Positions 14,039-29,473 of a stretch of 39,656 bases of DNA are shown one piece after another. Source of the stretch: Komagataeibacter melaceti (GTDB lineage: Bacteria > Pseudomonadota > Alphaproteobacteria > Acetobacterales > Acetobacteraceae); assembly GCF_003403295.1 (NCBI RefSeq), contig NZ_QUWV01000085.1, forward strand, positions 1-39,656, written 5' to 3'. The translations under genes were made by a program, and so were the position numbers. The notes under the pieces were generated by a model. That model did not search any database, was not told the DNA's origin, and saw nothing but the letters and a program-made list of their open reading frames with translations. The first letter of the stretch is position 1, and the number at the start of each line of letters is the position of its first letter.

Positions 14039-14977
14039 TTGGATATACGGCGGTTGCAGGCATTTGTTAAAATAATTGACCTGGGCAGCATTTCCCGCGC
14101 TGCCGACCTGCTCAATATTGCCCAGCCCGCATTGAGCCAGCAACTGGCCACGCTGGAAAGTGTCTTCAAACAGAAACTGGTTATCAGAAGCAAAAGCGGG
14201 GTCACACCCACGACTGCCGGGGCCGAACTGTACCGCCACGCCCAGACACTAACCAAACAGTTCGATCGCGCCATGGTCGAGATCAGCCGTGGCGTGGGAC
14301 CACTGGTGGGCAAGGTATCGGTCGGGCTGTCACCCTACAGCGCCGGATCGACGCTGTCGGTCGAACTGCTGCGCCGCGTGCGTGAACGGCTGCCGGACAT
14401 AACCCTGCACCTGACCGAAAGTTTCGATGACATATACAGTGAACTGATCATGACGGGCCGGCTGGACATGGCCGTCATCCACGGGGCGGGACCGATCAAG
14501 GGCGTGATCTTCACCCCGCTGATGAAGGAGGAATTCTTCCTTCTCGCCCCCCAGTCACTGGAAATCCCGCAGGATGAGACGGGTGCGGTGCAACTGGCGG
14601 ACATTACGGATATTCCGCTGCTGCTGCCGCCCACGCACAACTTTGTCCGCAAGAGCGTTGACATGGCCTTCATGCGCAAGCAGCTCGAACCCCATATCGT
14701 TGCGGAAATAGAGGCGCTGAACACCCTGCAGGGCGCCATAGTCGAGGGGATTGGCAGCACCATCCTGCCATGGTCCGTCGCCAGTCGGATTGTCGTGCCC
14801 GACAGGTCGCGCATCTATCCGCTGCGCAACCCGGTCATACAGGAAGATGTATCGCTATGCGTGCCTGAAATCATCCCCGAGACGGAAGCCTCGGTCGCGG
14901 TGCGTGAACTGCTGATTGATCTGGCCCGGACAATGGCCGCCTCACGCAACTGGCCGGGCACGCAGGCCTCGACGTAA
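14039..14977 (+). CDS. LysR-family regulator resembling Nac (nitrogen assimilation control)
   Basis: This 312-residue LysR regulator has an N-terminal winged helix (MDIRRLQAFVKIIDLGSIS, AADLLNIAQPALSQQLATLE) with the RSKSGVTPT wing, followed by a two-lobe effector domain. The DNA-binding region and the segment VGKVSVGLSPYSAGSTLS resemble enterobacterial Nac, which adjusts nitrogen metabolism. This is recognised by eye and is not an orthology claim. The start is a TTG, supported by an AAGGAG site 6 bases upstream and by the N-terminal consensus. It is divergent from the TonB receptor and convergent on aspA, with only 4 bases between stops. Control of the receptor and aspartate genes is inferred. 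Confidence 0.88.
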   Translation: MDIRRLQAFVKIIDLGSISRAADLLNIAQPALSQQLATLESVFKQKLVIRSKSGVTPTTAGAELYRHAQTLTKQFDRAMVEISRGVGPLVGKVSVGLSPYSAGSTLSVELLRRVRERLPDITLHLTESFDDIYSELIMTGRLDMAVIHGAGPIKGVIFTPLMKEEFFLLAPQSLEIPQDETGAVQLADITDIPLLLPPTHNFVRKSVDMAFMRKQLEPHIVAEIEALNTLQGAIVEGIGSTILPWSVASRIVVPDRSRIYPLRNPVIQEDVSLCVPEIIPETEASVAVRELLIDLARTMAASRNWPGTQAST

Positions 14978-14981: not shown

Positions 14982-16478
14982 CTACGCCACCTGCACGCCG
15001 ATATTGGGCCGGGTCAGGGCCTCGGGGCGCAAGATCTGCGCGAGCCGTTCCGGGGACAGGTGATTTTCCTCCACCACAAGCTCCGTGACCGTCCGGTTCT
15101 CGGCCAGGGCACGCCGGGCGATGGTGGAGCAGGTTTCATACCCCAGCACCGGTACCAGTGCGGTAATGATGCCGATATTGATGCCCGACAGGTATGCGCA
15201 CCGCTCGGGGTCGGCAACAATTCCGGCCACGCAGCGTGTGGACAGGGTATCGACAGCCGTGCGCAGTATTTTCAGCGATGAAAACAGGCAATAGCCAATC
15301 ATCGGCTCAAAGGGGTTAAGCTGCAACTGCCCGCCATCGGCACACATGCCAATGGTCGTGTCATGCCCCGCCACCAGATAGGCAACCTGGTTGACGGCTT
15401 CCGGTATGACCGGATTGACCTTGCCCGGCATGATGGAGGACCCCGCCTGCACGGCGGGCAGCACGATCTCGCCCAGCCCGGCCCGTGGCCCGCTGGAGAG
15501 CAGGCGCAGGTCGCTTGAAATCTTGGAAAGTTTCAGGGCCAGCCTTTTCAGCACGCCAGAAAACAGGACGAATGCCCCGACATCCGATGTCGCCTCGATC
15601 AGATCGGGCGCATGCGCCATGGGCCGCCCTGTCAGCGCGCGCAGTTCCGCCATCACGGCCTGTGCGTAACGCGGGTCGGTATTCAGCCCCGTCCCGATGG
15701 CGGTGCCGCCCAGATTGACCTGTTCAAAGGCACTGACATGCGCCTTCAGGCTCCTGATCTCGGTTTCCACCGCAATGCGGAAGGCATTGAATTCCTGCCC
15801 CAGCGTCATGGGAACGGCGTCGCGCAACTGGGTCCGTCCCACCTTCAAAATCGCGCCAAAGGCCTGCGCCTTTTCACCAAAGGCACGGGCCAGCCCCTCC
15901 AGCGCCGCGACCAGCGGGCCAGTCGCCAGCATGACCCCGAGGCGCAGCGCGGTCGGATAGACATCATTGGTGGACTGGGCCATGTTGACATGGTCGTTGG
16001 GGTGAACGAGCGCATAGGTTCCGGGCTTTTCGCCCATCATCACCAGCGCCGCGTTGGCTATGACCTCGTTGGCGTTCATGTTGGTGGATGTGCCAGCGCC
16101 GCCCTGCATGGCATCCACCACGAAATGGGCGTGATAGGCGGGGTTCCCCAGTATCTCGCTGCACGCGGCATCAATGGCCCCGGCCCGCCGCGCATCCAGA
16201 TACCCCAGCGCGTGATTGGCCCGCGCCGCCGCCTGCTTAACGCTGACCAGCGCCTGCACGAACTCCCCATATGTTCCGATCGGTATGCCGCTTATGGGAA
16301 AATTCTGTAGCGCACGCCATGTATGTATGCCCCACAGGGCATCTGCGGGAATGTCCGCCTCCCCCAGCAGGTCACGTTCCCTGCGGCTGGCCTGCCCGTC
16401 CTGCACGGGGTGCGGCGGCACCCCGGATGCGGGAAAGGGATCGGTGGCGTCTGCCGCATGGGAAGGGATGTTGAACAT
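14982..16478 (-). CDS. aspA: Aspartate ammonia-lyase
   Basis: This 498-residue member of the aspartase/fumarase superfamily reversibly converts L-aspartate to fumarate and ammonia. The signature GSSIMPGKVNP (with flexible-loop catalytic serine) is followed by EAVNQVAYLVAGHDTTI and QLQLNPFEPMIGY, close to E. coli AspA and unlike fumarase C. Other conserved blocks are QGGAGTSTNMNANEV, NDHVNMAQSTNDVYPTA, GRTQLRDAVPMTLGQEF and LRLLSSGPRAGL. The chain begins with an unusual hydrophilic extension of about 35 residues before RRERDLLGEADIPADALWG, where family members usually start. No strong ribosome site precedes the ATG. It is convergent with the LysR gene and divergent from an aspartate aminotransferase, giving an aspartate-fumarate-glutamate theme. 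Confidence 0.9.
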   Translation of the reverse strand: MFNIPSHAADATDPFPASGVPPHPVQDGQASRRERDLLGEADIPADALWGIHTWRALQNFPISGIPIGTYGEFVQALVSVKQAAARANHALGYLDARRAGAIDAACSEILGNPAYHAHFVVDAMQGGAGTSTNMNANEVIANAALVMMGEKPGTYALVHPNDHVNMAQSTNDVYPTALRLGVMLATGPLVAALEGLARAFGEKAQAFGAILKVGRTQLRDAVPMTLGQEFNAFRIAVETEIRSLKAHVSAFEQVNLGGTAIGTGLNTDPRYAQAVMAELRALTGRPMAHAPDLIEATSDVGAFVLFSGVLKRLALKLSKISSDLRLLSSGPRAGLGEIVLPAVQAGSSIMPGKVNPVIPEAVNQVAYLVAGHDTTIGMCADGGQLQLNPFEPMIGYCLFSSLKILRTAVDTLSTRCVAGIVADPERCAYLSGINIGIITALVPVLGYETCSTIARRALAENRTVTELVVEENHLSPERLAQILRPEALTRPNIGVQVA

Positions 16479-16858
16479 TAGGGCCTATCCGGGCTGGAGG
16501 GTCTTATCGGGTATTGAAGACCGCCGCCCATGGTCAGGCGACTGTGTTCACGCAATCTGAAAAAATGAATTCACGTTATCTGTAGTTCACGAATACAAAA
16601 ATATGGTCATCATATATTTTTATATTCACGACTGGAGCCAGAAATACTCAAGGGTTAACCCTGAATAATTCATGGGCGGCCATTCATGCCACGGGCGTTC
16701 TTTTGCGCCATCCCGATCCTATGGGCCTGCACCCACCTCTGCCCCATAGGATTGTTGTATGGGGTCAGACAATTTTCGGCGGTATCTAATACGTGCTGAA
16801 ACGATTTACCGTGTACCCAATACGCATGCGCGACATATCGAGATTGGAGAGACCGCCG
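16479..16858. promoter_or_regulatory. Divergent control region, aspA / aspartate aminotransferase
   Basis: These 380 bases between divergent genes contain three dyads. AAAAATAT/ATATTTTT lies at 16597-16604 and 16614-16621, and contains an ATA-N9-TAT arrangement at 16601-16615. A 12-bp palindrome AGGGTTAACCCT lies at 16651-16662. A 10-bp perfect inverted repeat ATCCTATGGG/CCCATAGGAT lies at 16716-16725 and 16743-16752. No coding sequence was seen. Both promoters must lie here; exact boxes are not clear. Confidence 0.5.
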
Positions 16859-18061
16859 ATGCCCGGCTTTGCAGATCGACTGAATGGAATAGGGATTTCG
16901 GCCTCTGCCGCCATGACCGACAAGGCCACGGCGCTGAAGGCGGAAGGCCTGAAAATCATCAGCCTTTCATCAGGGGAACCCGATTTCCCGACCCCGTCAC
17001 ATGTAGTGGACGCAGCGATTGCCGCCGCCCGCGCCGGTGACACCAAATACCCGCCGCAGGACGGCAAGCCGGCGCTGAAAAAAGCCGTTCAGGCCAAATT
17101 CCTGCGTGAAAACCATCTTGATTACGCGCTGGATGAAATTCTGGTCGCCAACGGCGCCAAGCAGATCATCTATGACGCCATGATGGCGACCATCAATCCG
17201 GGTGACGAGGTGGTCCTGCCCACCCCCTACTGGATCAGCTATGCCGACATCGCCCGCCTTGGCGGGGCCAAAATCGTGCAGGTGCCCTGCCCCGCCGCCA
17301 ACAACTTCCGCCTTTCGGCGGCGGATCTGGATGCGGCCATTACACCGCGCACCAAGTGGCTGGTGCTGAACTTCCCCAGCAACCCGACGGGCGCGTGCTG
17401 CCCGCGTCAGGAAATGGAGGAGATCGCCGCCGTCCTGCTGAAGCATCCGCATGTCTGGATACTGACGGATGATATTTACGAACACCTCATCTATGACGGG
17501 TTTGAGTTCTGCACGCTGGCGGAAGTCGAACCCCGCCTGAAGGAACGGGTGCTGACGGTCAACGGGGTTTCCAAAAGCTACGCCATGACCGGCTGGCGCG
17601 TGGGCTTCTGCGGTGGGCCGCGCAACCTGATCGCGGCCATGAACAACATGCAGGGCCAGTCCACCAGCGGCATCAACACCATTGCGCAGGCCGCAGCCGT
17701 AGCCGCGCTGGAGGGACCGCAGGACTTCCTTGCCCAGCGTGCTGCCGAATATCAGGCCCGGCGTGACCTGGTCGTGAGCCTGCTCAACGCCATCCCCGGC
17801 GTGCAGTGCCACACGCCACAGGGGGCATTCTATGTCTATCCTGATATTGCGGCATGTATTGGCAAGACGACGGCGGGTGGACGGCACATCGGGAACGATA
17901 CCGATTTCGTCATGGCCCTGCTGGAAGAAAAGCAGGTGGCTTCCGTTCAGGGGGCGGCTTACGGGATGAGCCCCTTCTTCCGCATTTCCTACGCGACCGA
18001 TACCGCAACCCTGCGCGAAGGCTGCAGGCGGATTGCGGAATTCGTCTCCACCCTGCGCTAG
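16859..18061 (+). CDS. Aspartate aminotransferase (PLP fold type I, subgroup I)
   Basis: This 400-residue cytosolic enzyme exchanges amino groups between aspartate and 2-oxoglutarate. The PLP-binding lysine is K239 in SKSYAMTGWRVGF. Other fold-type I marks are SSGEPDFPTP near residue 34, ANGAKQIIYDAM (phosphate-binding), PTPYWISY, NFPSNPTGA, and LTDDIYEHLIY before the Schiff-base lysine. The C-terminal FRISYAT motif has the carboxylate-binding Arg. It resembles the AatA/AspC-Ib type common in alphaproteobacteria. An upstream ATG at 16793 exists, but the ATG at 16859 has GGAGAG 7 bases upstream (16846-16851) and the family N-terminus. It stands next to divergent aspA, so aspartate can be transaminated or deaminated. 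A strong terminator follows. Confidence 0.93.
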   Translation: MPGFADRLNGIGISASAAMTDKATALKAEGLKIISLSSGEPDFPTPSHVVDAAIAAARAGDTKYPPQDGKPALKKAVQAKFLRENHLDYALDEILVANGAKQIIYDAMMATINPGDEVVLPTPYWISYADIARLGGAKIVQVPCPAANNFRLSAADLDAAITPRTKWLVLNFPSNPTGACCPRQEMEEIAAVLLKHPHVWILTDDIYEHLIYDGFEFCTLAEVEPRLKERVLTVNGVSKSYAMTGWRVGFCGGPRNLIAAMNNMQGQSTSGINTIAQAAAVAALEGPQDFLAQRAAEYQARRDLVVSLLNAIPGVQCHTPQGAFYVYPDIAACIGKTTAGGRHIGNDTDFVMALLEEKQVASVQGAAYGMSPFFRISYATDTATLREGCRRIAEFVSTLR

Positions 18062-18183: not shown

Positions 18184-18651
18184 TCAGTCCTGATCGGGCC
18201 GTATCTGAAGGATTGCGGCCCCGTACCCCAGCAGTTCATCCGGCTGGGCCACGACCTGCTCCACCACGCCCCCCACCGGCGCCCTGACGGGCACCTGAAG
18301 GCTGCCCAGCGTCAGCAGGGCCACAACATCATCCTGTCCGACCGTTGCCCCCACCGGCGCGAACACACTGTCGCGCATGGGGTGGGTCAGGCACAGCTTA
18401 CCAAAATAGGGGGCACGGACCGTAACGGTCCCCTCCCCTGCTTCCGCCTGAGGCATGGCTGGTTCGGATGCCATGCCTTTTTCAACCGGGGCCGCCGCCG
18501 CAGGCACGCGGATGCGCAGCCGCAGGCCCGCGTCGTTGGAAAGCTCGAGCGAGTCCAGCCTGGCCTCGGCCAGCCATGTGGCGATCTGGCTGATTTCCCC
18601 CGGTTCGGGCAGCCTGTCGAAATCAGGAACCAGTTCTGGCGGGTTGCTCAT
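18184..18651 (-). CDS. Second AccB-like biotin carrier protein without the biotin lysine
   Basis: This 155-residue protein has the two-part AccB layout. An N-terminal helical segment (ISQIATWLAEARLDSLEL) is followed by a strand rich in Arg, a Pro/Ala/Glu linker (about residues 50-80), and a C-terminal biotinyl/lipoyl barrel (VRAPYFGKL, GQDDVVALL, VPVRAPVGGVVEQVV). Where active carriers have EAMKV or EAMKM, this has TLGSL, so the lysine is replaced by Ser117 and biotin cannot be attached at the usual place. Its ATG overlaps the stop of accC (ATGA, 18648-18651), so it is translationally coupled and last in the SDR-accB-accC operon. A structural or regulatory partner of the biotin complex is the best guess. 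It is intact, not visibly decaying. Confidence 0.85.
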   Translation of the reverse strand: MSNPPELVPDFDRLPEPGEISQIATWLAEARLDSLELSNDAGLRLRIRVPAAAAPVEKGMASEPAMPQAEAGEGTVTVRAPYFGKLCLTHPMRDSVFAPVGATVGQDDVVALLTLGSLQVPVRAPVGGVVEQVVAQPDELLGYGAAILQIRPDQD

Positions 18652-20015
18652 GATGCCGTTCTTTCCGCAAGCCATCGTTCAAGATAATGGATGTCCACCC
18701 CACCACGCTGGAAGTGCGGATCAGCCAGCAGGTCCTGATGCAGGGCGATGTTGGTGGCAACCCCTTCCACCCGCATTTCCGCCAGCGCGGTGCGCAGGCG
18801 CGCAATGGCTTCCGCGCGTGATGCGCCATAACCTATGACCTTGCCGATCAGGGAATCATAATAGGGCTGGACCGTGTAACCACTCACCACATGCGTATCC
18901 ACCCGGATGCCCGGCCCACCGGGCAGGTCCCAGCGCGTGATGGTGCCGGGGGACGGGACAAAGGTAAACGGATCTTCCGCATTGAGCCGACATTCAATGG
19001 CATGGCCGCGCAACCGGATGTCTTCCTGCCGGATACGCAATGCCTCGCCCTGCGCGATGCGCAACTGCTCGGCCACGATATCCACGCCGGTTATTTCCTC
19101 CGTAATCGGATGTTCGACCTGCACGCGGGTATTCATCTCGATAAACGCGAACACACCATCTTCATACAGGAACTCGAACGTGCCCGCGCCACGGTAGCCG
19201 ATCCGGCGGCAGGCCTGCGCGCAGCGTGCCCCGATTTCGGCAATGGTCTCGGGCGCGATGCCGGGGGGGGAGGCTTCCTCCAGCACTTTCTGGTGGCGCC
19301 GCTGGAGCGAACAGTCGCGCGCCCCCAGCCACAGCGCCGTGCCGTGGGTGTCACACAGCACCTGTATCTCGATATGGCGCGGCTTCTGCATGAAGCGTTC
19401 AAGGTACAGGGTCGGGTTACCGAATGCCTGCTGCGCTTCCTTGGCCGTAAGTGCCACCGCCTGTGTCAGGTCTTCGGCCCGTTCGACCACGCGCATGCCG
19501 CGCCCGCCGCCGCCGCCGGATGCCTTTACAATAACCGGGAAACCGACCTGCCGGGCAACGGCGTGCACATCTTCCATCGCGGCAGGCAGCGGCCCGTCCG
19601 ATCCGGGCACGCAGGGCACATTGGCGTCACGCATGGCCTGCTTGGCGGTGATCTTGTCACCCATCATGCGGATGGATGCCCCCGTCGGGCCAATGAAGGT
19701 CAGGCCCGCAGCTTCGACCGCATCCGCAAAATCAGCATTTTCCGACAGGAAACCATAACCGGGGTGAATGGCCGTGGCCCCCGTCATCCTGGCGGCCAGC
19801 AGCAGCCCGTCAGGGTCAAGGTAGCTGCGTGCGGCGGCAGCCGGGCCAATGCACAGGGCCACATCCGCCTCATGCACGTGCCGGCTGTCGGCATCCGCTT
19901 CCGAATACACGGCAACGGTTTCAAGGCCGAGCTGCCTGCATGCCCGCTGGATACGAAGGGCGATTTCGCCACGATTGGCGATCAGCACCCGTTTGAAACG
20001 CAACGTATCACTCAT
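18648..20015 (-). CDS. accC: Biotin carboxylase subunit
   Basis: This 455-residue ATP-grasp enzyme carboxylates protein-bound biotin with ATP and bicarbonate. The N-terminal domain has KRVLIANRGEIALR, HPGYGFLSEN (79-92) and FIGP. The ATP-grasp domain has K164 and the glycine loop SGGGGGRGM (166-174), LERF, RDCSLQRRHQKVLEE (233-247), and the EMNTRVQVEHP catalytic block (293-303). The C-terminal domain closes the fold. Length is normal. It overlaps accB by 4 bases (ATGA, 20012-20015) and the second carrier gene by 4 bases. No acetyl-CoA carboxyltransferase gene is nearby. Its divergent neighbours are pxpB and pxpC, which resemble the carboxyltransferase part of urea carboxylase. A non-acyl-CoA role is therefore likely, though the primary fatty-acid AccC cannot be excluded from one gene alone. 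Confidence 0.92.
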   Translation of the reverse strand: MSDTLRFKRVLIANRGEIALRIQRACRQLGLETVAVYSEADADSRHVHEADVALCIGPAAAARSYLDPDGLLLAARMTGATAIHPGYGFLSENADFADAVEAAGLTFIGPTGASIRMMGDKITAKQAMRDANVPCVPGSDGPLPAAMEDVHAVARQVGFPVIVKASGGGGGRGMRVVERAEDLTQAVALTAKEAQQAFGNPTLYLERFMQKPRHIEIQVLCDTHGTALWLGARDCSLQRRHQKVLEEASPPGIAPETIAEIGARCAQACRRIGYRGAGTFEFLYEDGVFAFIEMNTRVQVEHPITEEITGVDIVAEQLRIAQGEALRIRQEDIRLRGHAIECRLNAEDPFTFVPSPGTITRWDLPGGPGIRVDTHVVSGYTVQPYYDSLIGKVIGYGASRAEAIARLRTALAEMRVEGVATNIALHQDLLADPHFQRGGVDIHYLERWLAERTAS

Positions 20016-20449
20016 GCCAGACGGAACAGGGGTGTGCCTGCCTCCACTTCCGCGCCGTCCTCGACAAGGATTTCCGCAATCTGGCCAGCCTGCGTGGCCT
20101 TGACCGCATTGAACACTTTCATTGCCTCCACCAGTGCCACTTCCTGCCCGGGCTGCACATCCTGCCCCACCGTGACGTAAGGCGGCGCGCCGGGCGAAGG
20201 GGAGAGATGAACAATCCCGTACGAAGGCGCGGCAATAACCGGCACCTGCGCCGGGGCGGCTTCAGGCTGAGGTACTGCTGCGACACTTTCGCGCGGCCGG
20301 GCCGGGGCCTGCGCCCGCGCGGTGGCGGGAGCGGGCCGGGCCTCGCTGCGGGTTATGCGGATTTTCCGGCCATCGGCCTCGGCTTCAAGCTCCGTGATCG
20401 GGGCCTGTGCCAGCAGGTCTATCAGCCGCCTGATCTGGGAGATATCCAC
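20012..20449 (-). CDS. accB: Biotin carboxyl carrier protein
   Basis: This 145-residue biotin carrier has an N-terminal AccB-type segment (ISQIRRLIDLLAQAPITELE, basic strand GRKIRITR). A flexible Ala/Pro-rich linker runs about 35-75. The biotinyl domain follows, with SPSPGAPPYVTVGQ and the biotin site VEAMKVFNAV, in which K111 is the modified lysine. The segment usually written APMVGTFY is changed to AAPSYGIVHLS, which is less typical for a fatty-acid AccB. It begins 5 bases after the SDR stop and overlaps accC by 4 bases. It most likely carries carboxybiotin between AccC and a partner, here proposed to be PxpB-PxpC. Confidence 0.92.
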   Translation of the reverse strand: MDISQIRRLIDLLAQAPITELEAEADGRKIRITRSEARPAPATARAQAPARPRESVAAVPQPEAAPAQVPVIAAPSYGIVHLSPSPGAPPYVTVGQDVQPGQEVALVEAMKVFNAVKATQAGQIAEILVEDGAEVEAGTPLFRLA

Positions 20450-20454
20450 TGACG

Positions 20455-21210
20455 TTACGCCGGGTCAGACGACTTTTTTGCAAAATTGAGGCCACCCACC
20501 ACCTGCATGGTCGGCAGCACTTCCATGAAGCTGACGTTCATGCGCTGCGGCGCCAGCACGGCGAAGGCGACGGAATTGGCAATGTCTTCGGGCAGGAGTG
20601 ACTCGTATTCGTCAAAGAAGCGCTTCTTCGCTTCTTCCATGTTGCCAATCAGGCGACCGAACACTTCGGTTTCCACGCGGGCGGGGGAGACCTCCGTCAC
20701 ACGCACATGCCGCCCGTACAGGTCGCAGCGCAGCTGCTGGGAGAGCGAATGTACGCCCGCCTTGGTTGCATGATAGACCGTGTTGCCACCGGCAAAGGCG
20801 TAATGCCCGGCGATCGAGCTGATGTTGACGATATGCCCCCGGTCACGCTCGATCATGCCCGCCACGACCAGACGGGTCAGTTGCAGGACAGCGCGCAGGT
20901 TCACATCCACCAGCGCATCAATATCCTCGGGCGTGGTGTTCGTGATGTTGCCGGTGCGCGACTGCCCCGCGTTGTTGACCAGAATGTCGATCTCGAGCCC
21001 GCTGACCAGCGCCTCGATCCCGGCCTGGTCCGATACGCTGACCGCGTGCGGGATGCAGCCGGTTTCCTGCGCAAGCTGTGTCAGCCGCGCCGCGTCACGC
21101 GCGAGGGCATGCACCTGTATCCCGGCCTCGCTCAGCCTGCGGACGATTGCCGCCCCGATCCCCGAAGACGCGCCAGTGACAAGGGCGGTACGATACGGCT
21201 GATTGCTCAT
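20455..21210 (-). CDS. Short-chain dehydrogenase/reductase (SDR family)
   Basis: This 251-residue NAD(P)-dependent oxidoreductase is of the classical SDR type. The dinucleotide motif TGASSGIG lies at residues 12-19, NNAG near 84, the catalytic Ser in NISSIAGH, and the Tyr-Lys pair in YHATK near 151-155. The length is standard. It resembles the YdfG type that acts on 3-hydroxy acids such as serine or L-allo-threonine, but substrate cannot be fixed by eye. It is first in the operon with accB, accC and the lysine-less carrier (5-base gap) and divergent from the pxp operon, suggesting a step on a product or precursor of the same pathway. Confidence 0.88.
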   Translation of the reverse strand: MSNQPYRTALVTGASSGIGAAIVRRLSEAGIQVHALARDAARLTQLAQETGCIPHAVSVSDQAGIEALVSGLEIDILVNNAGQSRTGNITNTTPEDIDALVDVNLRAVLQLTRLVVAGMIERDRGHIVNISSIAGHYAFAGGNTVYHATKAGVHSLSQQLRCDLYGRHVRVTEVSPARVETEVFGRLIGNMEEAKKRFFDEYESLLPEDIANSVAFAVLAPQRMNVSFMEVLPTMQVVGGLNFAKKSSDPA

Positions 21211-21558
21211 GGTAATGGGACCCGATCCTGCAACAGAGAAGAAGAAAACTCCCGGCCCCGTGATACAGGCACCGGAAACAGAATATTCATTTCATGCTAG
21301 CCGGGGCACAATCACAGCGCCAAGAGCAGTTCGTTCTTACGCCATAACATAATACGATACCAACGCTTACCCCTTGAGCCATAAGATTATCCAATACCCT
21401 CACAACCAGAAATGCACTGGCTATCATTACCGCCACCGGCCATATCCTTGGGGCAGGCACCGGATGCCGCGACTCTTGTATCGTTACGGTTATGGTTTGA
21501 TTGCCGGACCCTGCCCCCTCCCGTGGCATGGCTGGCGCTGTTCCAGGGACTGTGGATT
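21211..21558. promoter_or_regulatory. Divergent control region, SDR-acc operon / pxp operon
   Basis: These 348 bases lie between the SDR start and the chosen pxpB start. They are AT-richer from about 21285 to 21420, with GCCATAA repeated in the same orientation at 21341-21347 and 21378-21384. An open frame runs from 21412 into pxpB, but its product before the family start shows no pxpB similarity. The promoters of both operons must lie here, and no clear operator dyad was seen. Confidence 0.45.
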
Positions 21559-22251
21559 TTGAACACGGATATCACGCGCAACGTGGGGCACAGGACGGAC
21601 GCGGCACCCACCATCAGCATGATCGGCACCCGCGCCATGCTGTTCGAAGCGCCCGGCGCCTTCACCATGGCCCATCAGCGCCGCATATGGGCATTGATGG
21701 AGGCCGCGCAGGCCCGGCCCGACGTGCAGGAACTCATTCCCGGTGTAACCAATCTCATGCTGGTGTTTTCCACCCCGCCGGAACAGCCCGGACATGTGGC
21801 CGACTGGCTGCGCCATGCATGGGAAACCCTGCCGGAGCGCCACATCAAGGGCCGCCTGTTTGAAATCGGCGTCCGTTACGGCGGCGCGCTGGGTGAGGAC
21901 CTGGCCGCGGTCGCGGCCCATGCGGGCCTGCCCCCGCAGGATGTCATTTCCATTCACCATGGTAGTGAATACACGGTCTGCGCCATCGGCAGCGCGCCCG
22001 GTTTTGGCTACCTGCACGGGCTGGACCCGCGCATCGCGACGCCACGCAAGGCCGTGCCCTCGCTTAAAATGCTGGCGGGAACGGTCACCATTGGCGGCAT
22101 GCAGGCCGGCATTTCCGCGCTGACCGGGCCAAATGGGTGGAATTCCATCGGTTATACCGAAATCTGCCTGTTCGACCCCCATCGGGAACCGCCCGCCCTG
22201 TTCGCGATCGGGGACCGGATCCGCTTCTACCCCGAAAGCATCGAACTGTGA
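21559..22251 (+). CDS. pxpB: 5-oxoprolinase subunit PxpB (KipI family)
   Basis: This protein of about 230 residues is one of three subunits of the prokaryotic ATP-dependent 5-oxoprolinase, which opens pyroglutamate to glutamate. Family blocks are ISMIGTRAMLFE near the start, QRRIWALMEAAQ, ELIPGVTNLMLVF, IGVRYGGALGEDLAAVAAHAGL split over residues about 120-145, SAPGFGYLHGL, and ATPRKAVPSLKMLAGTVTIGG. The start is uncertain: the frame is open from ATG 21412, but pxpB similarity begins near residue 66 of that frame. The TTG at 21559 is preferred because AGGGAC lies about 10 bases upstream; GTG 21583 and ATG 21619 are alternatives. It overlaps pxpC by a GTGA (22248-22251). Confidence 0.87.
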   Translation: MNTDITRNVGHRTDAAPTISMIGTRAMLFEAPGAFTMAHQRRIWALMEAAQARPDVQELIPGVTNLMLVFSTPPEQPGHVADWLRHAWETLPERHIKGRLFEIGVRYGGALGEDLAAVAAHAGLPPQDVISIHHGSEYTVCAIGSAPGFGYLHGLDPRIATPRKAVPSLKMLAGTVTIGGMQAGISALTGPNGWNSIGYTEICLFDPHREPPALFAIGDRIRFYPESIEL

Positions 22252-23255
22252 TTACGATCCTTGAAACATCCGCGCTGAACACGGTGCAGGATCTGGGCAG
22301 GCCGGGGTACCGCAACCTGGGCGTGGGCACATCGGGCGTGATGGACCATGTGGCACTTCAGGTTGGCAATATCCTGCTGCACAACCAGCCCGGTGACGCC
22401 TGCATCGAACTCCAGACCTATCCCTTCGTCCTCCGCTTCGAGACCGCGGGCAGCTTTGCCGTAACCGGTATCGACGCGGACATCACGCTGGACGGCACGC
22501 CCGTCCTGCCGTGGTCGGTCATGACGGCCGCGCCGGAACAGATGCTGCGGGTGGGGCAGCCACGTGCGGGCGCGCGGGGCTATGTGTGCATTGCGGGCGG
22601 GATTGACGTGCCTGTCGTGCTCGGGTCACGCAGCACCCAGTTGCGCGGCAGTTTTGGCGGAATGGACGGCCGACCGCTTGAAGCGGGTGATACGCTGAAA
22701 ACCTCCGGCGTGACTACTCCCGTGGCGGGATATGGTGCCGTGCCGCCCACCAGCATCCTTGCCGCGCCAGGCGGACAGGACAGCACCGTCATCAACCTGC
22801 GCGCCATCCCCGCCACCGATTACGCCCTGTTCACCGCGCAGGCGCATGAACGGCTGTGGCACACACAGTGGCGCATCACGCCACAGAGCAATCGCGTGGG
22901 CTACCGGCTGTCGGGCGCGCCGCTGGAACTGCACCAGCGGGTGGAACTGCGTTCCTACGGCATCGTGCCCGGCATCGTGCAGGTTCCCCCTGCCGGTGAA
23001 CCGATCGTGCAGCTTGCGGATGCCAATACCGCAGGCGGCTACCCCCGCATCGTCACGGTGATCGAGGCCGACCTGTGGCGGCTGGCGCAGGCACGTATTG
23101 GCGCGCGCATCCGTTTTCATGAATGCACGCACCAGCAGGGCGTTGCGGCGATGGCGCCGATTGAAGCCTATCTGGATGACCTGCGCATGATGGTGGCCCA
23201 TTACCGCAAATCCGCCCTGCGCCGCACCGGCGCGAAACCCGGAGACAAGGCATGA
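22248..23255 (+). CDS. pxpC: 5-oxoprolinase subunit PxpC (KipA family)
   Basis: This 335-residue partner of PxpB belongs to the biotin-dependent carboxyltransferase-like KipA family. Signatures are LETSALNTVQDLGRPGY near the N-terminus, GVGTSGVMDHVALQVGN, ELQTYPFVLRF, RAGARGYVCIAGGID, VVLGSRSTQLRGSFGG, then SNRVGYRLSGAPLE, and the closing IVQLADANTAGGYPRI. All are family typical. The GTG at 22248 is the start: it overlaps the pxpB stop and precedes the conserved N-terminus, whereas an ATG at 22137 lies inside pxpB and adds unrelated sequence. It overlaps pxpA by ATGA (23252-23255), so the three subunits are translationally coupled. Confidence 0.93.
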   Translation: MITILETSALNTVQDLGRPGYRNLGVGTSGVMDHVALQVGNILLHNQPGDACIELQTYPFVLRFETAGSFAVTGIDADITLDGTPVLPWSVMTAAPEQMLRVGQPRAGARGYVCIAGGIDVPVVLGSRSTQLRGSFGGMDGRPLEAGDTLKTSGVTTPVAGYGAVPPTSILAAPGGQDSTVINLRAIPATDYALFTAQAHERLWHTQWRITPQSNRVGYRLSGAPLELHQRVELRSYGIVPGIVQVPPAGEPIVQLADANTAGGYPRIVTVIEADLWRLAQARIGARIRFHECTHQQGVAAMAPIEAYLDDLRMMVAHYRKSALRRTGAKPGDKA

Positions 23256-24019
23256 AGATCGATCTCAATTCGGATATGGGCGAAGGCTTCGGGCGCTGGC
23301 GTATCGCGGATGATGACGGCCTGATGGATACCGTGTCCTCGGCCAACATCGCCTGCGGGTTCCATGCCGGTGATTACGCCATCATGAGCCGCACCGTGCA
23401 GCTTGCCAGGGAAAAGGGCGTTGCGATCGGCGCCCATCCCGGCCTGCCGGACCTGACCGGTTTCGGGCGGCGGACCATGAACGTGTCGGATGCGGACATG
23501 GAAGCGATGCTGGTCTATCAGGTTGGTGCGCTACAGGGCATTGCCACCCGCCATGGCCACCGTGTGACGCATGTAAGCTACCACGCCGCCTTCGGCACCA
23601 TGGCCAATGCGGATGAAGGGCTGGCCCTGCGGCTTGCCCGCGCCATTGCGGCACTTGACCCGGAACTGACGGTATTTTCCATGCCCGGCCAGTTGACCGA
23701 ACGCGCGGCGGAAAAGGCCGGGTTGCGTGTCCATACCCTGTTCCTGGCCGACCGGGCCTATACCACGGCCGGGACACTGGTGCCGCGCGGGCAGCCGGGG
23801 GCGGTCATTCATGACCTTGCCGCCGTGCAGGCGCGTGTCAGCCAGTTCCTGGAAGATGGCTCCGTTACGACCATTGACGGCGCGCGCCTGCCGGTAAAGG
23901 CGCGTTCCATCCTGGTGCATAGTGACACGCCGGGTTCACTGGAACTGGCCCGCGCCATCCGCACCCAGATCGAGGCCAGCGGCGCCACCCTGACCCCGGC
24001 CAGCCAGATCACGGACTAG
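23252..24019 (+). CDS. pxpA: 5-oxoprolinase subunit PxpA (LamB/YcsF family)
   Basis: This 255-residue TIM-barrel-like subunit completes the 5-oxoprolinase. The N-terminus KIDLNSDMGEGFGRW is the family hallmark. It is followed by VSSANIACGFHAGD, IGAHPGLPDLTGFGRR, and later the LADRAYTTAGTLVPR block and VHSDTPGS, which carry the conserved acidic, His and Lys/Arg positions of the active site. One deviation is SYHAAFGTMAN, where relatives more often have KPHGALYN: the Lys, Pro and Gly positions differ. This may alter the substrate. It is coupled to pxpC by a 4-base overlap and followed by a short repeat and a palindrome before the DMT transporter gene. Confidence 0.92.
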   Translation: MKIDLNSDMGEGFGRWRIADDDGLMDTVSSANIACGFHAGDYAIMSRTVQLAREKGVAIGAHPGLPDLTGFGRRTMNVSDADMEAMLVYQVGALQGIATRHGHRVTHVSYHAAFGTMANADEGLALRLARAIAALDPELTVFSMPGQLTERAAEKAGLRVHTLFLADRAYTTAGTLVPRGQPGAVIHDLAAVQARVSQFLEDGSVTTIDGARLPVKARSILVHSDTPGSLELARAIRTQIEASGATLTPASQITD

Positions 24020-24170: not shown

Positions 24171-25094
24171 ATGAAGCATGACCTGAAACGTGGCGCGTTA
24201 CTGCTGGCATCGGCCACCTTTTTCACGGCGGCCCTCAATGCCCTGCAGAAGCTGACGGGATCGACGCTGCCTGCGCTTGAGATCATTTTCTTCCGCAACC
24301 TGTTTTCCCTGCCCTTTGTCCTGCTGATCGCGGCGCGCACCACGATCGTGCTGCGCACGCACCATTTTGGCGGGCACCTGCTGCGTTCGGTGGTGGGGCT
24401 GGTCAGCATGATCATGGTGGTCATTACCGTGACCCGCCTGCCACTGGCCGAACAGCAGGTGCTGTCCTACACGCAGCCGCTGTTCCTTGTGCTGCTCAGC
24501 ATTCCGCTGCTCCATGAAAAACCGTCCCTGCAACGCTGGATCGCCGTTTCAATCGGGTTTTCCGGCGTCGTTGTGGTGGCAATGGGCAAGGGGCTGCTGC
24601 ATGGCGCGGCGGGTACGGTCGCGCACTGGGCCTATTTCGTGGCACTGGCGCAGGGGGCCGTGGGCGCGCTGACCACCATGCAGATCCGCCAGCTTTCCGC
24701 AACCGAAGCCAGCACCACGATCGCCCTGTGGCAGGCCATCCTCATGACCGTCATGACCGCGCTGCCGCTCCCCTTCATCTGGACCACCCCGTCCATGACC
24801 GATGCCGCATGCCTTGTCGCAGTGGGCGCGTTTGCCGGTATTGCGCAGGTTCTGCAGACGGAAGCCTTTGCCTCCGCACAGGTTTCGGCCATTGGCCCGT
24901 TTGCCTATTCGGGCCTGTTATGGGCCGGTCTGATCGGCTGGTTCGGGTTTGGCGAGGTGCCGGGCGTTGCGATGGTGCTGGGCGGGCTGCTGATCATCGG
25001 CTCGGGTGTGTGGATGCTCCGCCATGACCGGCCAGCGCAGAAACAGGCCGCGGTCGAGGGGACAATGGACACGGCCTCCGGCACGCAGGCGTAA
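24171..25094 (+). CDS. DMT-superfamily transporter (EamA type)
   Basis: This 307-residue inner-membrane protein carries two EamA repeats with ten predicted transmembrane helices in the usual five-plus-five pattern. The first repeat includes FFRNLFSLPFVLL and the end of helix four at VLSYTQPLFLVLLSIPLLHEKPS. The second ends with YSGLLWAGLIGWFGFGEVPG and a final helix. These are typical of drug/metabolite transporters that move amino acids or other small metabolites. A GAGGT lies about 9 bases before the ATG. It follows pxpA by 151 bases with a palindrome in between, so it may have its own control. Transport of pyroglutamate or a related compound is inferred from the context only. Confidence 0.88.
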   Translation: MKHDLKRGALLLASATFFTAALNALQKLTGSTLPALEIIFFRNLFSLPFVLLIAARTTIVLRTHHFGGHLLRSVVGLVSMIMVVITVTRLPLAEQQVLSYTQPLFLVLLSIPLLHEKPSLQRWIAVSIGFSGVVVVAMGKGLLHGAAGTVAHWAYFVALAQGAVGALTTMQIRQLSATEASTTIALWQAILMTVMTALPLPFIWTTPSMTDAACLVAVGAFAGIAQVLQTEAFASAQVSAIGPFAYSGLLWAGLIGWFGFGEVPGVAMVLGGLLIIGSGVWMLRHDRPAQKQAAVEGTMDTASGTQA

Positions 25095-25168: not shown

Positions 25169-26419
25169 GTGACAACAGGTGAATCCGCCATCAATGCACG
25201 AAGCAGGCGTACCCTTCCTTCGCGCCATGTGTTCTTCCTCCTCGTGTTCCTTATGTACGTCATCAGCTACGGGGACCGCGCGGCGCTTTCCATCGCCCTG
25301 CCGACACTGGGAAAAGAGTTCACGCTCACGCCCGTGCAGATGGGGTGGGTTTCATCCAGTTTCCTGTGGTCGTATTTCCTGCTGAACCTGCCATCGACCA
25401 TCGTGCTGGATATGGTGGGCGCGCGCCTGATCGGCAGCGTGGCCGTGGGGCTGTGGTCTTTCGCCATGCTGCTGGGCGGCATGGCGCAGAACATCACGCA
25501 GTTCCTGCTGACCCGCGTTCTCCTTGGCGTGGGGGAAGCACCCACCTTTGGCGTGGGAGCCACGGTTGTCCGTTCATGGGCGCAGCCGCGTGAGCGGGGG
25601 TCGGTCATGACCATATTGCTGACCGGGATGCAGCTTGGCCTTGCGGGCGGCACACTGGCGGGGGCCTATCTCATTACCCTGTTCGGCTGGCGGTTCGAGT
25701 TCATGGCGCTGGGTGGCATCGGGATTGTCTGGGCCATCGTATGGTGGCTGGTCTATCGCAACCCGGTGGAGGGAACGGCCCAGTCCACAAGGACGCCCAT
25801 CTCGGTCAGGGAAATCAGGAGCCTGTTCCGCTCCCCCTCGTTCCTGGGGATACTGGCGGTACAGTGCACGCAGAACTACCTCAACTTCCTGGTCATGTCA
25901 TGGATGCCGCTCTACCTTATCCATGAACTGCACATCGACATTACGGGAACCGGCACGAGTACTGCGGCGTGTTACCTGTTCGCCGCCGTGGGGGCTGTCA
26001 TCATTGGCCGGATACTGGAGCGTATCGTGTTCCGCAACGGCATCCACCCTCCGCTGCGGCGCTATATTGTCGTCACCTGCCTTGTGGGGGCCGCGACAAT
26101 CGGCATCCTGCCGCATTTCCATTCCCTGCCGCCGATCCTGCTGGTGCTGTCCGGTGCGCTGGCCTGCCTGATTGCCGCCAATGGCGCGAACACCGCCCTG
26201 CTGACCGACCTGGTGGAAGATGGCCACAAAATTGGCGCCGTCACCGGCGTTACACTGACATGCAGCAATTCACTCGGCCTTCTGGCGCCCATCCTGACCG
26301 GGTACATCGTCTTCTACACCGGCAGCTTTGACATGGCATGGTACATGTGCGCGGCGGCCCTGCTTGTTGCCGCCGTGCTGTCAGCACTCATGGTCCGCAC
26401 ACCCATCCGGATGGGCTGA
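25169..26419 (+). CDS. MFS transporter, anion:cation symporter type
   Basis: This 416-residue major-facilitator protein has 12 transmembrane helices. The N-terminal YVISYGDRAALSIALP motif, the F..SYFLLNLPSTIVLDMVGAR segment at helix 2-3, and RVLLGVGEAPTFGVG near helix 4 fit the ACS family, whose members take up organic anions such as hydroxy acids, glucarate or phthalate-like compounds. The start is GTG at 25169 with AGGAGG (25155-25160) eight bases upstream, the best ribosome site in the region. It is 74 bases after the DMT gene and on the same strand, probably in the same unit, and a strong stem-loop follows. It could be the uptake system for the substrate of the pxp/acc genes; this is an inference. 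Confidence 0.9.
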   Translation: MTTGESAINARSRRTLPSRHVFFLLVFLMYVISYGDRAALSIALPTLGKEFTLTPVQMGWVSSSFLWSYFLLNLPSTIVLDMVGARLIGSVAVGLWSFAMLLGGMAQNITQFLLTRVLLGVGEAPTFGVGATVVRSWAQPRERGSVMTILLTGMQLGLAGGTLAGAYLITLFGWRFEFMALGGIGIVWAIVWWLVYRNPVEGTAQSTRTPISVREIRSLFRSPSFLGILAVQCTQNYLNFLVMSWMPLYLIHELHIDITGTGTSTAACYLFAAVGAVIIGRILERIVFRNGIHPPLRRYIVVTCLVGAATIGILPHFHSLPPILLVLSGALACLIAANGANTALLTDLVEDGHKIGAVTGVTLTCSNSLGLLAPILTGYIVFYTGSFDMAWYMCAAALLVAAVLSALMVRTPIRMG

Positions 26420-26626: not shown

Positions 26627-27583
26627 TCACCCCGACGGCAATACAACATGTGCCGGGACCTTGCCCGCAAGACAGTCCATGACCTGATGCACGCACATCA
26701 TCGCCATCCGGATCAGGGCTTCCTGTGTTGTGGCCCCCATATGCGGGGTCAGTATCATCGCAGGGCTGGAAAGTGCGGGTTCATCGGGCAACGGGGGTTC
26801 GTGGGGCATGACATCCAGTGCTGCCGCCGTCAGTTTCCCGGCCACGAGCCGGTCACGGAGTGCACGGGTGTCAATCGCACTGCCACGGCTTGTATTGACA
26901 ATAATGGCGTGGTTGCCGAGCAGGTCCAGATGATGCGCATCCAGCACCGGCTGGCCGGACGCATCGGCAGGGCGATGGAGGGAGACGACATCAGCCTGAC
27001 GGAGAAGATCCTCAAGGCTGGCAATCCGCTCCACGCCATGCGCCACGAATACATCATCCGGCACGCTGGGTGACCAGGCCCGCACCTTCATGCCCAGACC
27101 CAACCCGGCAATCCGGGCAACATCGCGCGCAATGGCCCCGAAACCCACCAGCGCCAGTGTCTTGCCATGCAGTTCGATCCCGGCTCCCTCGTAACGGAAA
27201 CCCCAGTTCCCGTTACGCACGGCGGCATCGGCCGCACATACCCTGCGGGCTGCCGCCAGCATGAGCGCAACCGTCATTTCAGCCACGGAACGGCTGTTCG
27301 CATTCACCGCGCGGGTAACATAAATGCCCCGCCGGGCGGCTTCCGCCACCGCGATCGCGTTTGTGCCGGACCCGTGGCAGGCAATGATGCGCAGCCGGGG
27401 TACGGCCGCCACGGCTGCGGCGCTGAAGCCGAGGTCACGGGTTATGATCGCTTCGGCATCACCAACCTCCGCAATAACGGCGTCCATGGTGGGCTGGCTG
27501 GCAAGGCGTGTATGGAAGCCCTGTTCCTGCAGGAACCGGATGGCTTCTGGGTGAATGGGCTGCGTGATGAAACATGTGCTCAT
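26627..27583 (-). CDS. D-isomer 2-hydroxyacid dehydrogenase (NAD-dependent)
   Basis: This 318-residue protein of the D-2-hydroxyacid dehydrogenase family interconverts a D-2-hydroxy acid and its 2-keto acid. Visible features are NANSRSVAEMTVALML before the NAD domain, the Rossmann motif VGFGAIARD (GxGxxA instead of the usual GxGxxG), VSLHRP, NTSRGSAIDTRAL with the substrate Arg, DVMPHEPPLPDEP with the catalytic Glu, and LTPHMGATTQEA with the catalytic His. All three catalytic residues are present. It is the last gene of the minus-strand block, 48 bases after the M20 hydrolase. It may reduce or oxidise the acid released by that hydrolase. The natural substrate is unknown. Confidence 0.9.
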   Translation of the reverse strand: MSTCFITQPIHPEAIRFLQEQGFHTRLASQPTMDAVIAEVGDAEAIITRDLGFSAAAVAAVPRLRIIACHGSGTNAIAVAEAARRGIYVTRAVNANSRSVAEMTVALMLAAARRVCAADAAVRNGNWGFRYEGAGIELHGKTLALVGFGAIARDVARIAGLGLGMKVRAWSPSVPDDVFVAHGVERIASLEDLLRQADVVSLHRPADASGQPVLDAHHLDLLGNHAIIVNTSRGSAIDTRALRDRLVAGKLTAAALDVMPHEPPLPDEPALSSPAMILTPHMGATTQEALIRMAMMCVHQVMDCLAGKVPAHVVLPSG

Positions 27584-27631
27584 GAAGCCAGATACCTGTC
27601 GGGCATGAAAAACGGAATACGGCCACAGGCC

Positions 27632-28924
27632 TCAGGGTCTTGCTGCACGCAGGCGCAGCAGTTCTTCCAGAATCCGTACGCCACACAGGAAGTCCCCGAT
27701 TTCCATGCTCTCATCGGGGTTATGGCTGCCATTTTCGTTACGGACAAACAGCATTTCGGTAGAGATGCCCTGCCCCGCGAATGTCGCGGCATCATGGCCC
27801 GCGCCGCTGGGCATTGAAAGTGCGGGGATATTCAGGCTGGCGGCAATCCGCTTCGCTTCGGCCTGAAGCCCTGCATCCATGACAGCGGGCGTGCTGCGCG
27901 TGCGCGGGCCGAGATCGACCGTTACATTATATGCGGCTTCGACCCTGCGCGCCTGTTCAATGACAAGGGCGTTCATCCGCTCCAGCAGGTCTTCATCACG
28001 CGAGCGGATGTCGATGACCAGTTCCAGCCTGCCGGGTACGGCCGCGAAATTGGCCTGCGCGGGATCGGTCTGGCATACGCCGAATGTCAGGGTCATTTCT
28101 TCCCCGCCAGCCTCGACCTGCCGCCATGCCGCGTGCAGCGCCATCATCATGTCCGCCCCCGCCATGACGGCATCGGACCGGAAGCGCCGGGGGGTTGCGC
28201 CGGAATGGGCGTACTGGCCATGGATGGTTACGGAACGGTAGCGGGTACTGCCGCAGATGCCGGTCACGATCCCGACCGGCACGTCCGCTTCCAGCAGGAC
28301 CGGACCCTGTTCAATGTGCAGTTCCACAAAACAGTCTATTTTCGCGGGCTGCAATACGGCGGCCTGTCCACACAAATCGGGCTGCGCACCGCAGGCCAGC
28401 ATGTGCTCACGCAGGCTGATGCCGTCATCGCTGCGCGGCGTGCGTAATGCCGGGGCATCAAGCAGGCCAAAGGCGGTCCGGCTACCCAGATAGGACAGGG
28501 GGAACCAGACGCTCTCCTCCGCGCGGGTTACGATCAGCGTGGTATCGCGCATGGGCTGGTAGCCTGCCCTGACCCATGCACACAGCACCAGAAGCCCGGC
28601 AACCGCTCCCGCCGCACCATCAAAATTGCCGCCACAGGGCACGGTATCCACATGTGAACCCGTCATGACGGCGGGCAGGTCGCGCATACGCCCCGGCAGG
28701 GTCACAAACAGGTTTGCGGCCCAGTCGCGCCGGATCTCAAGGCCATGTTCCCTGGCCACGGTCTCGAACAGGGCATGGGCAAGGTTTTCACCCTCCCCAT
28801 AGGACGGGCGCGTCATGCCCCGGCCATCAAAACCGATTTCATGCAGCCTGTCGAACATCCGGCGCGCCAGCCCGGAATCCGGGACCGGCGTGGAACATGC
28901 CGACGGCATCAGGGAACTGGCCAT
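27632..28924 (-). CDS. M20-family amidase of the hydantoinase/carbamoylase type
   Basis: This 430-residue metal-dependent amidohydrolase resembles N-carbamoyl-L-amino acid hydrolase, allantoate amidohydrolase and beta-ureidopropionase. Metal ligands are the His and Asp in GSHVDTVPCGGNFDGA (near residues 91 and 102), the Glu pair in TRAEES (near 136), the His in ELHIEQGPVL (near 190) and the terminal His in NGSHNPDESMEI. The dimerisation lid domain, with GQYAHSGATP, lies between. The substrate class is N-carbamoyl or ureido amino acids. The frame begins at a TTG (28930), but the ATG at 28924 with TAAGGA about 7 bases upstream is preferred. Only 9 bases separate it from the VOC stop, so the pair is coupled. 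Confidence 0.9.
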   Translation of the reverse strand: MASSLMPSACSTPVPDSGLARRMFDRLHEIGFDGRGMTRPSYGEGENLAHALFETVAREHGLEIRRDWAANLFVTLPGRMRDLPAVMTGSHVDTVPCGGNFDGAAGAVAGLLVLCAWVRAGYQPMRDTTLIVTRAEESVWFPLSYLGSRTAFGLLDAPALRTPRSDDGISLREHMLACGAQPDLCGQAAVLQPAKIDCFVELHIEQGPVLLEADVPVGIVTGICGSTRYRSVTIHGQYAHSGATPRRFRSDAVMAGADMMMALHAAWRQVEAGGEEMTLTFGVCQTDPAQANFAAVPGRLELVIDIRSRDEDLLERMNALVIEQARRVEAAYNVTVDLGPRTRSTPAVMDAGLQAEAKRIAASLNIPALSMPSGAGHDAATFAGQGISTEMLFVRNENGSHNPDESMEIGDFLCGVRILEELLRLRAARP

Positions 28925-28933
28925 GGTCAATCC

Positions 28934-29362
28934 TTACTGTTTTGCAAAAAGCAGGTGCATGTTCGCAAACGCCTTGAACTCCAGCGCATTACCCGCGGGG
29001 TCACAGAAGAACATCGTCGCCTGTTCCCCCGGCAGGCCGGCAAAGCGGATGGTGGGTTCCATGCCAAAGGTCACGCCATTGGCGCGCACCCGTTCGGCCA
29101 GGGCTTTCCAGTCATCCATGTCAAGGACGACACCGAAATGCGGGATGGGCACGTTATGGCCGTCAACCACGCCCTTGCCCTTCCCTTCGGTGGCATGACA
29201 GGCATCAGGGATCAGGTGGGTCACGATCTGGTGGCCGTACAGGTCGAAGTCGATCCATGTATCCGTGCTGCGCCCCTCGGGGCAGCCCAGCACGGTCCCA
29301 TAGAATGTCCGCGCGACGGCAAGGTCATCGACCGGGAAGGCGATGTGGAAGGGATTAGCCAT
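28934..29362 (-). CDS. VOC-family (glyoxalase/dioxygenase fold) protein
   Basis: This 142-residue protein has two beta-alpha-beta-beta-beta modules. The first starts [25 protein letters not shown] and the second [18 protein letters not shown]. The candidate metal ligands are H6, the His of the second module start ([10 protein letters not shown]) and the Glu of GNALEFKAF near the C-terminus. The gene lies just ahead of the M20 hydrolase and behind the CapA gene in the same strand block. VOC proteins include lyases, epimerases, dioxygenases and binding proteins, so no reaction can be named. The length is normal for a single two-module protein. Confidence 0.85.
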
Positions 29363-29473
29363 GAATACACCATAAAGTTATAAATAACGCCTTCATATCA
29401 CGTGGTTTTTCGGCGCAATAACGTGAATATATGACTTCATACGCAAGGAAATGTTTTCTATCGCGCATGGTTT
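29363..29473. promoter_or_regulatory. AT-rich spacer with a dyad before the VOC gene
   Basis: These 111 bases separate the CapA stop from the VOC start. They hold the inverted repeat TCACGT (29398-29403) and ACGTGA (29421-29426) with a 17-base spacer. The AT-rich character suggests an internal promoter for the VOC-M20-dehydrogenase genes, although read-through from CapA is possible. Confidence 0.4.

Follow-up and report, generated by a model that had tools for sequence, protein, structure and literature searches.

What are a biotin carboxylase and its carrier doing beside the three subunits of a 5-oxoprolinase? The question is raised by a 39,656-nucleotide stretch of Komagataeibacter melaceti DNA (contig NZ_QUWV01000085.1 of assembly GCF_003403295.1, the whole stretch being called the window here), in which AccB, AccC, a second AccB-like protein (AccB2) and a short-chain dehydrogenase/reductase (SDR) are encoded on one strand and PxpB, PxpC and PxpA on the other. 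A sequence-only reading had proposed that these seven genes, extending from 18184 to 24019, specify a split biotin-dependent carboxylase of amides or lactams. All seven are real and intact at those positions, as judged by their open reading frames and profile matches, and the biotin carboxylase, carrier and urea-carboxylase-type carboxyltransferase families are present as separate genes, again by profile matches. With slightly better than even confidence we take the locus to encode a split biotin-dependent enzyme, AccBC-PxpBC-PxpA, by which an amide or lactam would be used as nitrogen source, a role that the neighbouring NAC-like regulator gene fits.

How might such an enzyme work? AccC, whose motifs are intact, would carboxylate the biotin of AccB with ATP and bicarbonate. 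The biotin arm would then visit PxpB-PxpC, by family a carboxyltransferase of the urea carboxylase type, where the amide or lactam nitrogen of the substrate would be carboxylated; that the arm could make such a contact is suggested by the homologous partners in PDB entry 9YX5, considered below. PxpA would hydrolyse the ring or amide so activated, with loss of CO2 from the carbamate, and AccB2, which is not biotinylatable, may be an assembly or gating subunit, as BADC is in the acetyl-CoA carboxylase of plant plastids. The SDR, an aminotransferase and, depending on lineage, an aspartase or an oxaloacetate decarboxylase/aldolase would move the product towards aspartate or oxaloacetate. The substrate is probably not 5-oxoproline. 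Lactams of 4-hydroxyglutamate and cyclic ureides of aspartate are conceivable, though we put forward neither. The product may enter metabolism at aspartate or oxaloacetate, a suggestion that comes from the family names of the aspartase of Acetobacteraceae loci, the aspartate-type aminotransferase of nearly all loci and the decarboxylase/aldolase of many Rhizobiales ones. A bolder version, in which the amide or lactam is opened to an aspartate-type product by a dedicated AccBC-PxpBCA complex, with AccB2 as a permanently biotin-less, non-catalytic scaffold and the BADC principle thus invented independently in bacteria, is tentative, and we would lean against the whole of it being right.

Two known systems bracket the locus. 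The PxpABC 5-oxoprolinase (ybgJKL in E. coli, kipI-kipA-ycsF in B. subtilis) has the same three subunit families, all of which are present and adjacent in the window; to them the window adds a dedicated AccB-AccC, a lysine-less carrier, an aminotransferase and an SDR. Urea carboxylase (e.g., that of K. lactis, 3VA7) has its biotin carboxylase, carrier and CT_A_B/CT_C_D domains in common with the window, where, however, the parts are separate genes and PxpA adjoins them. There is no single fused chain, and the urea carboxylase model TIGR02712, with a cut-off of 1303.85 bits, gives 488.1 bits for AccC and 160 for PxpC.

Could AccB and AccC simply be the pair used for fatty acid synthesis? The sequence-only reading had asked for a look elsewhere in the genome, and there a second pair is found: the C-terminal domain of biotin carboxylase has two matches, one in the window and one, beside a biotinyl domain, on contig C113, while accD sits on contig C64. 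An identity as the fatty-acid acetyl-CoA carboxylase is thereby ruled out. Window AccC is 58% identical to the C113 copy, 62–69% identical to the AccC proteins of seven similar loci (from Rhizobiales, another alphaproteobacterium, Pseudomonas and Burkholderia) and 77–92% identical to those of three Acetobacteraceae, which places it in a lineage accompanying the module. It carries motifs that we take to be the active-site motifs of biotin carboxylase.

Does the grouping recur? A scan with PxpC yielded 240 related stretches, the best 80 of which, chosen therefore by similarity to the window, were retained, gene presence being scored by profiles at thresholds that we set. pxpB and pxpC are present in all 80, the aminotransferase in 77, accB2 and the NAC-like regulator in 76 each, a pxpA of the module type in 75, accB in 74, accC in 73, the SDR in 71 and an RraA-type gene in 44. 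Eight core genes (accB, accC, accB2, pxpB, pxpC, module-type pxpA, aminotransferase and SDR) stand together in 66 of the 80, and in 23 of 25 Acetobacteraceae loci; with such recurrence the grouping is not due to chance, and the conserved acc-pxp adjacency that had been put forward as a check is borne out. Some loci from which a gene is missing are truncated by contig ends (L034, L060) and others are apparent absences. An RraA-type aldolase was considered as a core part and rejected, given the 44 loci just mentioned and its absence from the K. melaceti genome. In the form seen in Rhizobiaceae plasmid records the order is accB-accC-accB2-pxpB-pxpC-pxpA-aminotransferase, with a LysR/NAC-type regulator on the opposite strand, and there are in addition an SDR, an amino-acid ABC transporter and an annotated 4-carboxy-4-hydroxy-2-oxoadipate aldolase/oxaloacetate decarboxylase. 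The distance matrices of the eight proteins correlate across 74 loci (r 0.74–0.96), as common descent alone could also bring about.

The link between biotin carboxylase (BC) and PxpBC proves to be wider than this module. Of 299 Pseudomonadota genomes drawn without regard to the window, whose own genome is among them, 102 have CT_A_B, urea carboxylases counted in. Setting aside three fragments, the window itself and all rows in frames as large as a urea carboxylase left 98 loci, taken with up to 8 kb per side (six stretches are shortened by contig ends). AccC lies within 8 kb of PxpC in 23 of the 98, where about 1.5 would be expected by chance on a rough hand estimate made from 88 matches to the BC C-terminal domain over about 103 Mb in 19 genomes that carry the module or a relative. 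Lysine-less carriers were overcounted automatically, since lipoyl-type domains and chance frames within accC were also picked up. Classes were cleaned by hand: 74 loci are plain, 19 are BC-linked with an ordinary PxpA and five are of the window type (L150, L164, L185, L192 and L207, kept after the stretches were read; L164 is without accC). Labels given by hand were plain for L233, L224, L227 and L201, BC-linked outside the module for L180, module for L027, L029, L030 and L091, BC-linked for L102 and L107 (carrier only), and module relatives without AccB2 in the stretch for L037, L058, L068 and L090.

AccC and a carrier also accompany pxpBC and pxpA in Azospirillum, Haladaptatus, R. leguminosarum and Klebsiella records, and a carrier alone is found in the stretches examined from Thermomicrobium, where BioY follows, and Lactiplantibacillus. 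With a BioY profile built from the Thermomicrobium sequence, in which BioY comes after pxpA, a BioY-like gene is seen at L155 and L160, two BC-linked survey loci out of 19, but at none of the 74 plain ones. Two further survey loci, L167 and L183, have both a BC-carrier fusion and a pxpBC fusion, in a single run that also includes pcp, DUF969, DUF979 and pxpA, and are candidate biotin-dependent 5-oxoprolinase operons on gene content; pcp and DUF969/DUF979 also accompany plain PxpABC in Streptomyces and several survey loci. In a PxpC tree built from 196 sequences after thinning, with urea carboxylases as root and the cleaned labels applied, the window's clade occupies one place (76 + 3 sequences, support 0.976) and the other BC-linked loci several, with seven class changes compared with a mean of 92.7 in 200 label shuffles. 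Closest to the root stand two branches with a BC or carrier link (L187 and the hand-labelled L107), so that biotin dependence may be the older state.

Contact between such partners is reported for homologues, as seen from the title and chain names of 9YX5. The title describes a long chain acyl-CoA carboxylase complex of M. smegmatis with MSMEG_0435-MSMEG_0436 bound, and the chain lists give AccA3 with MSMEG_0435, a PxpC homologue, and MSMEG_0436, a PxpB homologue. PxpBC homologues are thus in one structure with a BC-carrier subunit, like the pairing proposed for the window; unlike the window's dedicated AccBC, that subunit is shared with acyl-CoA carboxylases, and among the chains returned there was no lysine-less carrier. 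Matches listed in the open literature included no paper on 9YX5 or on the link of BC with pxpBC. A genome paper, in what is available of it (PMC12427679), reports that one species has extra genes for BC and biotin carboxyl carrier protein (BCCP) as well as pxpB-pxpC, but does not connect them. Overall, the AccBC-PxpBC pairing is well supported and partly known already.

Are AccBC and PxpBCA one enzyme, or two units that travel together, PxpBCA hydrolysing a lactam directly with ATP and AccBC serving another step, e.g., a small-acid carboxylation feeding oxaloacetate? Some gamma members do have PxpBCA, AccB2, aminotransferase and SDR with no local AccBC, and the PxpB of the window's clade is without residues that other BC-linked proteins and urea carboxylases have in common. 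On the other hand, no other carboxyltransferase is annotated in seven module records (the loci were not searched for one), the Bradyrhizobium AccBC operon contains a second PxpB-PxpC pair as its own, and 9YX5 reports contact between homologues. AccC and PxpC distances correlate at 0.91, though common descent could yield the same. Two separate units are, in our judgement, distinctly improbable. Bradyrhizobium loci L095, L075, L076 and L092 each have two PxpB-PxpC pairs, one of them within the AccBC operon. AccB2, aminotransferase and SDR are retained without local accB-accC at the gamma loci L099, L164 and L087.

The single biotin-dependent enzyme has nevertheless a number of observations to contend with. 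From what is available of the introduction to PMC13274462, PxpBC is assumed to phosphorylate 5-oxoproline with ATP, which would be a biotin-free route. At 74 of the 98 survey loci, all outside the module class, PxpBC has no AccC within 8 kb, and a biotin partner gene is thus not obligatory for it. The Pantoea (L087) and Winslowiella (L090) genomes have one AccC frame of 460–461 amino acids together with fused frames of about 1200; no AccC was found on the Rahnella plasmid of L099, whose chromosome was not searched; and in G241, where AccB2, SDR and aminotransferase are all present, the roughly 29 kb around pxpC include no accC. These four may borrow the housekeeping AccBC, or may need no biotin. 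At L074 accC is missing in place, and a search of the window's own genome found no RraA. The Gluconobacter frateurii locus L037, with pxpB-pxpC, transporters and aminotransferase but no module pxpA, accBC or SDR in the stretch, is perhaps a partly lost module. Then there is PxpB itself, in which R162, G186 and Q189 are invariant among the 25 other BC-linked rows and likewise among the 25 urea carboxylases, whereas the window's clade has S (88/93), N (88/94) and N (89/94) there; the module's carboxyltransferase is on these changes not the closest to that of urea carboxylase, which weakens the case for the biotin-dependent enzyme slightly. As to the coupling of biotin carboxylation to ring or amide opening that had been proposed from sequence, its BC-PxpBC half gains from the recurrence and from 9YX5, and is qualified by the members without a dedicated AccBC.

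The three PxpB residues are only partly present in plain PxpB, and R, G and Q at 162, 186 and 189 are a possible mark of biotin-using carboxyltransferases. A signature common to urea carboxylase and module PxpBC and absent from plain PxpBC was sought and none was convincing, in a test with uncleaned class labels that counted about seven BC-linked loci under the module; with cleaned labels it is the PxpB of the other BC-linked loci that shares residues with urea carboxylase, and the module's that does not. At position 139 the window's clade has S where F is found in 82 of the 83 plain rows and in all 25 of the other BC-linked ones, and carboxyltransferase positions constant in urea carboxylase, e.g., 139, 162, 186 and 189 of PxpB, differ in the window.

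What of the substrate? The sequence-only reading pointed to an altered SYHAAFG motif in PxpA, where canonical copies in the same alignment have KPHGALY or KPHGMLY. All 65 plain survey rows and all 19 of the other BC-linked ones have K at profile position 110 and E at 164; of the five survey module loci, four have S and L there, and one (L150) K and E. The window's PxpA has S110 and L164, its K110 and E164 being lost, while the other conserved acids and histidines are retained, from which we suppose that PxpA of the window's clade is probably still active, on something other than 5-oxoproline. The alteration is real, but as a sign of biotin linkage it is ruled out by those 19 canonical rows, and marks the window's clade alone.

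Might it still be a 5-oxoprolinase, performing the E. coli and B. subtilis PxpABC reaction with activation drawn from carboxybiotin? Canonical PxpA at the other BC-linked loci, two of them beside pcp and DUF969/DUF979, is what that would lead one to expect, and the window's PxpA scores above its subfamily cut-off. We nevertheless consider it improbable, for PxpA of the clade is without K110/E164 and its PxpB has S in place of F139 and mostly of R162; pcp, NRAMP, YcsI-like, DUF969 and DUF979 genes were not found in the window with single-sequence profiles; and the aspartase and aminotransferase are left unexplained. In addition, a canonical PxpA stands as a second copy some 9 kb off at L041 and at L045; at L039 only a canonical copy is present. 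PxpC reaches 281.1 bits against a cut-off of 500 for the equivalog model NF045499, and its AF2 model matches E. coli YbgK at 36% identity (Foldseek).

The most unusual part of the locus is its lysine-less carrier AccB2, which is new here. The sequence-only reading had noticed the missing lysine; EAMK is present in AccB and absent from AccB2. The biotin-lysine column has Lys in 0 of 86 AccB2 rows (P 42, T 13, S 9 and others) and in 84 of 84 AccB rows, counts that partly reflect the sorting since rows, one for each protein at most module loci, were assigned to AccB or AccB2 by the better-scoring profile. AccB2 retains the AccB-type N-terminal region as well as the biotinyl fold: its profile matches E. 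coli BCCP (4HR7_B) across positions 14–147, and hhalign gives a 99.5% probability for AccB2 against AccB. The AlphaFold model has a mean pLDDT (predicted local distance difference test) of 84.9, most of the C-terminal domain exceeding 95, with a predicted TM-score (pTM) of 0.54, and matches biotinyl domains (target TM-score 0.88 for 1BDO, 0.92 for 4HR7_G). In the 299-genome draw the AccB2 profile picks up ordinary AccB as well, with matches at 1e-6 in 281 genomes. Just six genomes exceed 90 bits, in each case through a carrier encoded at a module locus (the window is one of the six), the next two scorers being biotinylated AccB. AccB2 is the fastest changing of the eight core proteins (mean distance 0.68). 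Being lysine-less in 86 of 86 rows, with the AccB layout kept, and found at module loci, AccB2 is an old, retained subunit.

By analogy AccB2 would be a bacterial counterpart of the plant BADC proteins, likewise BCCP paralogues without the biotin lysine that stand beside BC and true BCCP; it differs in being bacterial and in its PxpBC setting, and the likeness is one of sequence and model. In its available part, PMC11926652 describes BADC as BCCP-like, without the biotin motif and the glue of the BC-BCCP complex, calls it unique to the plant enzyme, and has some bacterial acyl-CoA carboxylases using another non-catalytic subunit as glue. That source also records published inhibitory models of BADC while itself arguing for an assembly role. 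Might AccB2, instead of being a scaffold, act as an inhibitor or regulator, switching the complex off through competition with AccB for AccC? Its AccB-type N-terminal region would suit such a competitor, and the notion is compatible with a biotin-dependent amide or lactam enzyme. It is, however, unlikely, though by no means negligible: members that have no AccBC of their own do carry AccB2, and its gene adjoins pxpA in Rahnella and Burkholderia records, which suggests a partner of Pxp. A lysine-less carrier-type protein is also encoded at L180 (5279–5512, minus strand), next to a canonical PxpA and an NRAMP gene; in the PxpC tree L180 falls within the branch sister to the window's clade, with a support of 0.47. 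Biotin-less carriers may extend beyond this module.

The genes within 18184–24019 are all present, but the module is larger than that interval, as the aminotransferase, aspartase, NAC-like regulator and EamA and MFS transporters appear to be part of it too (Table 1). By tblastn, the 25 Acetobacteraceae loci have EamA in 24, MFS in 24, a regulator match in 24 and aspartase in 21; among 69 other loci a regulator match is seen in 67, the family being large, and aspartase in none. The aspartase-family protein scores 574.9 bits against the aspA equivalog model, under the cut-off of 681.2. The two operons are divergent, as had been described, and genes overlap inside them, but some 370 bases lie between the operons. 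There are 4-base overlaps of accB/accC, pxpB/pxpC (with PxpC starting at 22248) and pxpC/pxpA, a 28-base overlap of accC/accB2 and a 5-base gap between the SDR gene and accB, the overlaps being what one would expect for co-translated subunits. For PxpB a start at 21583 (GTG) or 21619 (ATG) is likelier than one at 21412, since its domain begins at residue 67 of the long frame; for PxpC 22248 is likelier than 22137. Adjoining the module, 26627–30790 encodes a 2-hydroxyacid dehydrogenase, an M20 amidase of N-carbamoyl type and a PGA_cap/MslH-like protein; for the M20 and PGA_cap genes, tblastn against the related stretches that had been fetched gave no match. A run of efflux-type genes (OEP, AcrB type, HlyD type) occupies 1177–6968.

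Table 1. Module features and their positions in the window
Feature	Positions	Strand	Basis
LysR-type regulator, NAC-like	14039-14977	+	Pfam LysR; NAC model 300.6 bits, just below cut-off 309
Aspartate ammonia-lyase (aspartase) family	14982-16478	-	NF008909 663.5 bits, cut-off 510
Class I/II pyridoxal phosphate aminotransferase, aspartate-transaminase-like	16793-18061	+	513.6 bits, below cut-off 617
AccB2, full-length AccB paralogue without biotin lysine	18184-18675	-	Biotin_lipoyl 25.8 bits, cut-off 22.1
AccC, biotin carboxylase	18648-20015	-	TIGR00514 657.7 bits, cut-off 626.5; motifs present
AccB, biotin carboxyl carrier with EAMK	20012-20449	-	Profile matches, alignment
SDR oxidoreductase	20455-21210	-	Nearest NCBIfam model YdfG, 163 bits, cut-off 411
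Divergent intergenic region separating both operons	21211-21582	.	About 370 bases
PxpB (CT_C_D)	21583-22251	+	PF02682; TIGR00370 173.8 bits, cut-off 145.55
PxpC (CT_A_B)	22248-23255	+	PF02626; sole CT_A_B match in own genome
PxpA (LamB_YcsF) with SYHAAFG	23252-24019	+	PF03746
EamA-family transporter	24171-25094	+	PF00892
MFS transporter	25169-26419	+	PF07690

What then does the locus contribute? While the idea of AccBC acting with PxpBC is partly visible in a solved structure, it is the lysine-less carrier together with the altered PxpA that makes this clade new. PxpB and PxpC are carboxyltransferase homologues, yet the activity described for PxpABC is an ATP-dependent hydrolysis without biotin, and loci in which PxpBC is tied to BC make it testable whether carboxylation belongs to the chemistry of the family. 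AccB2, in turn, provides a bacterial setting for learning what decoy subunits of the BADC type do.

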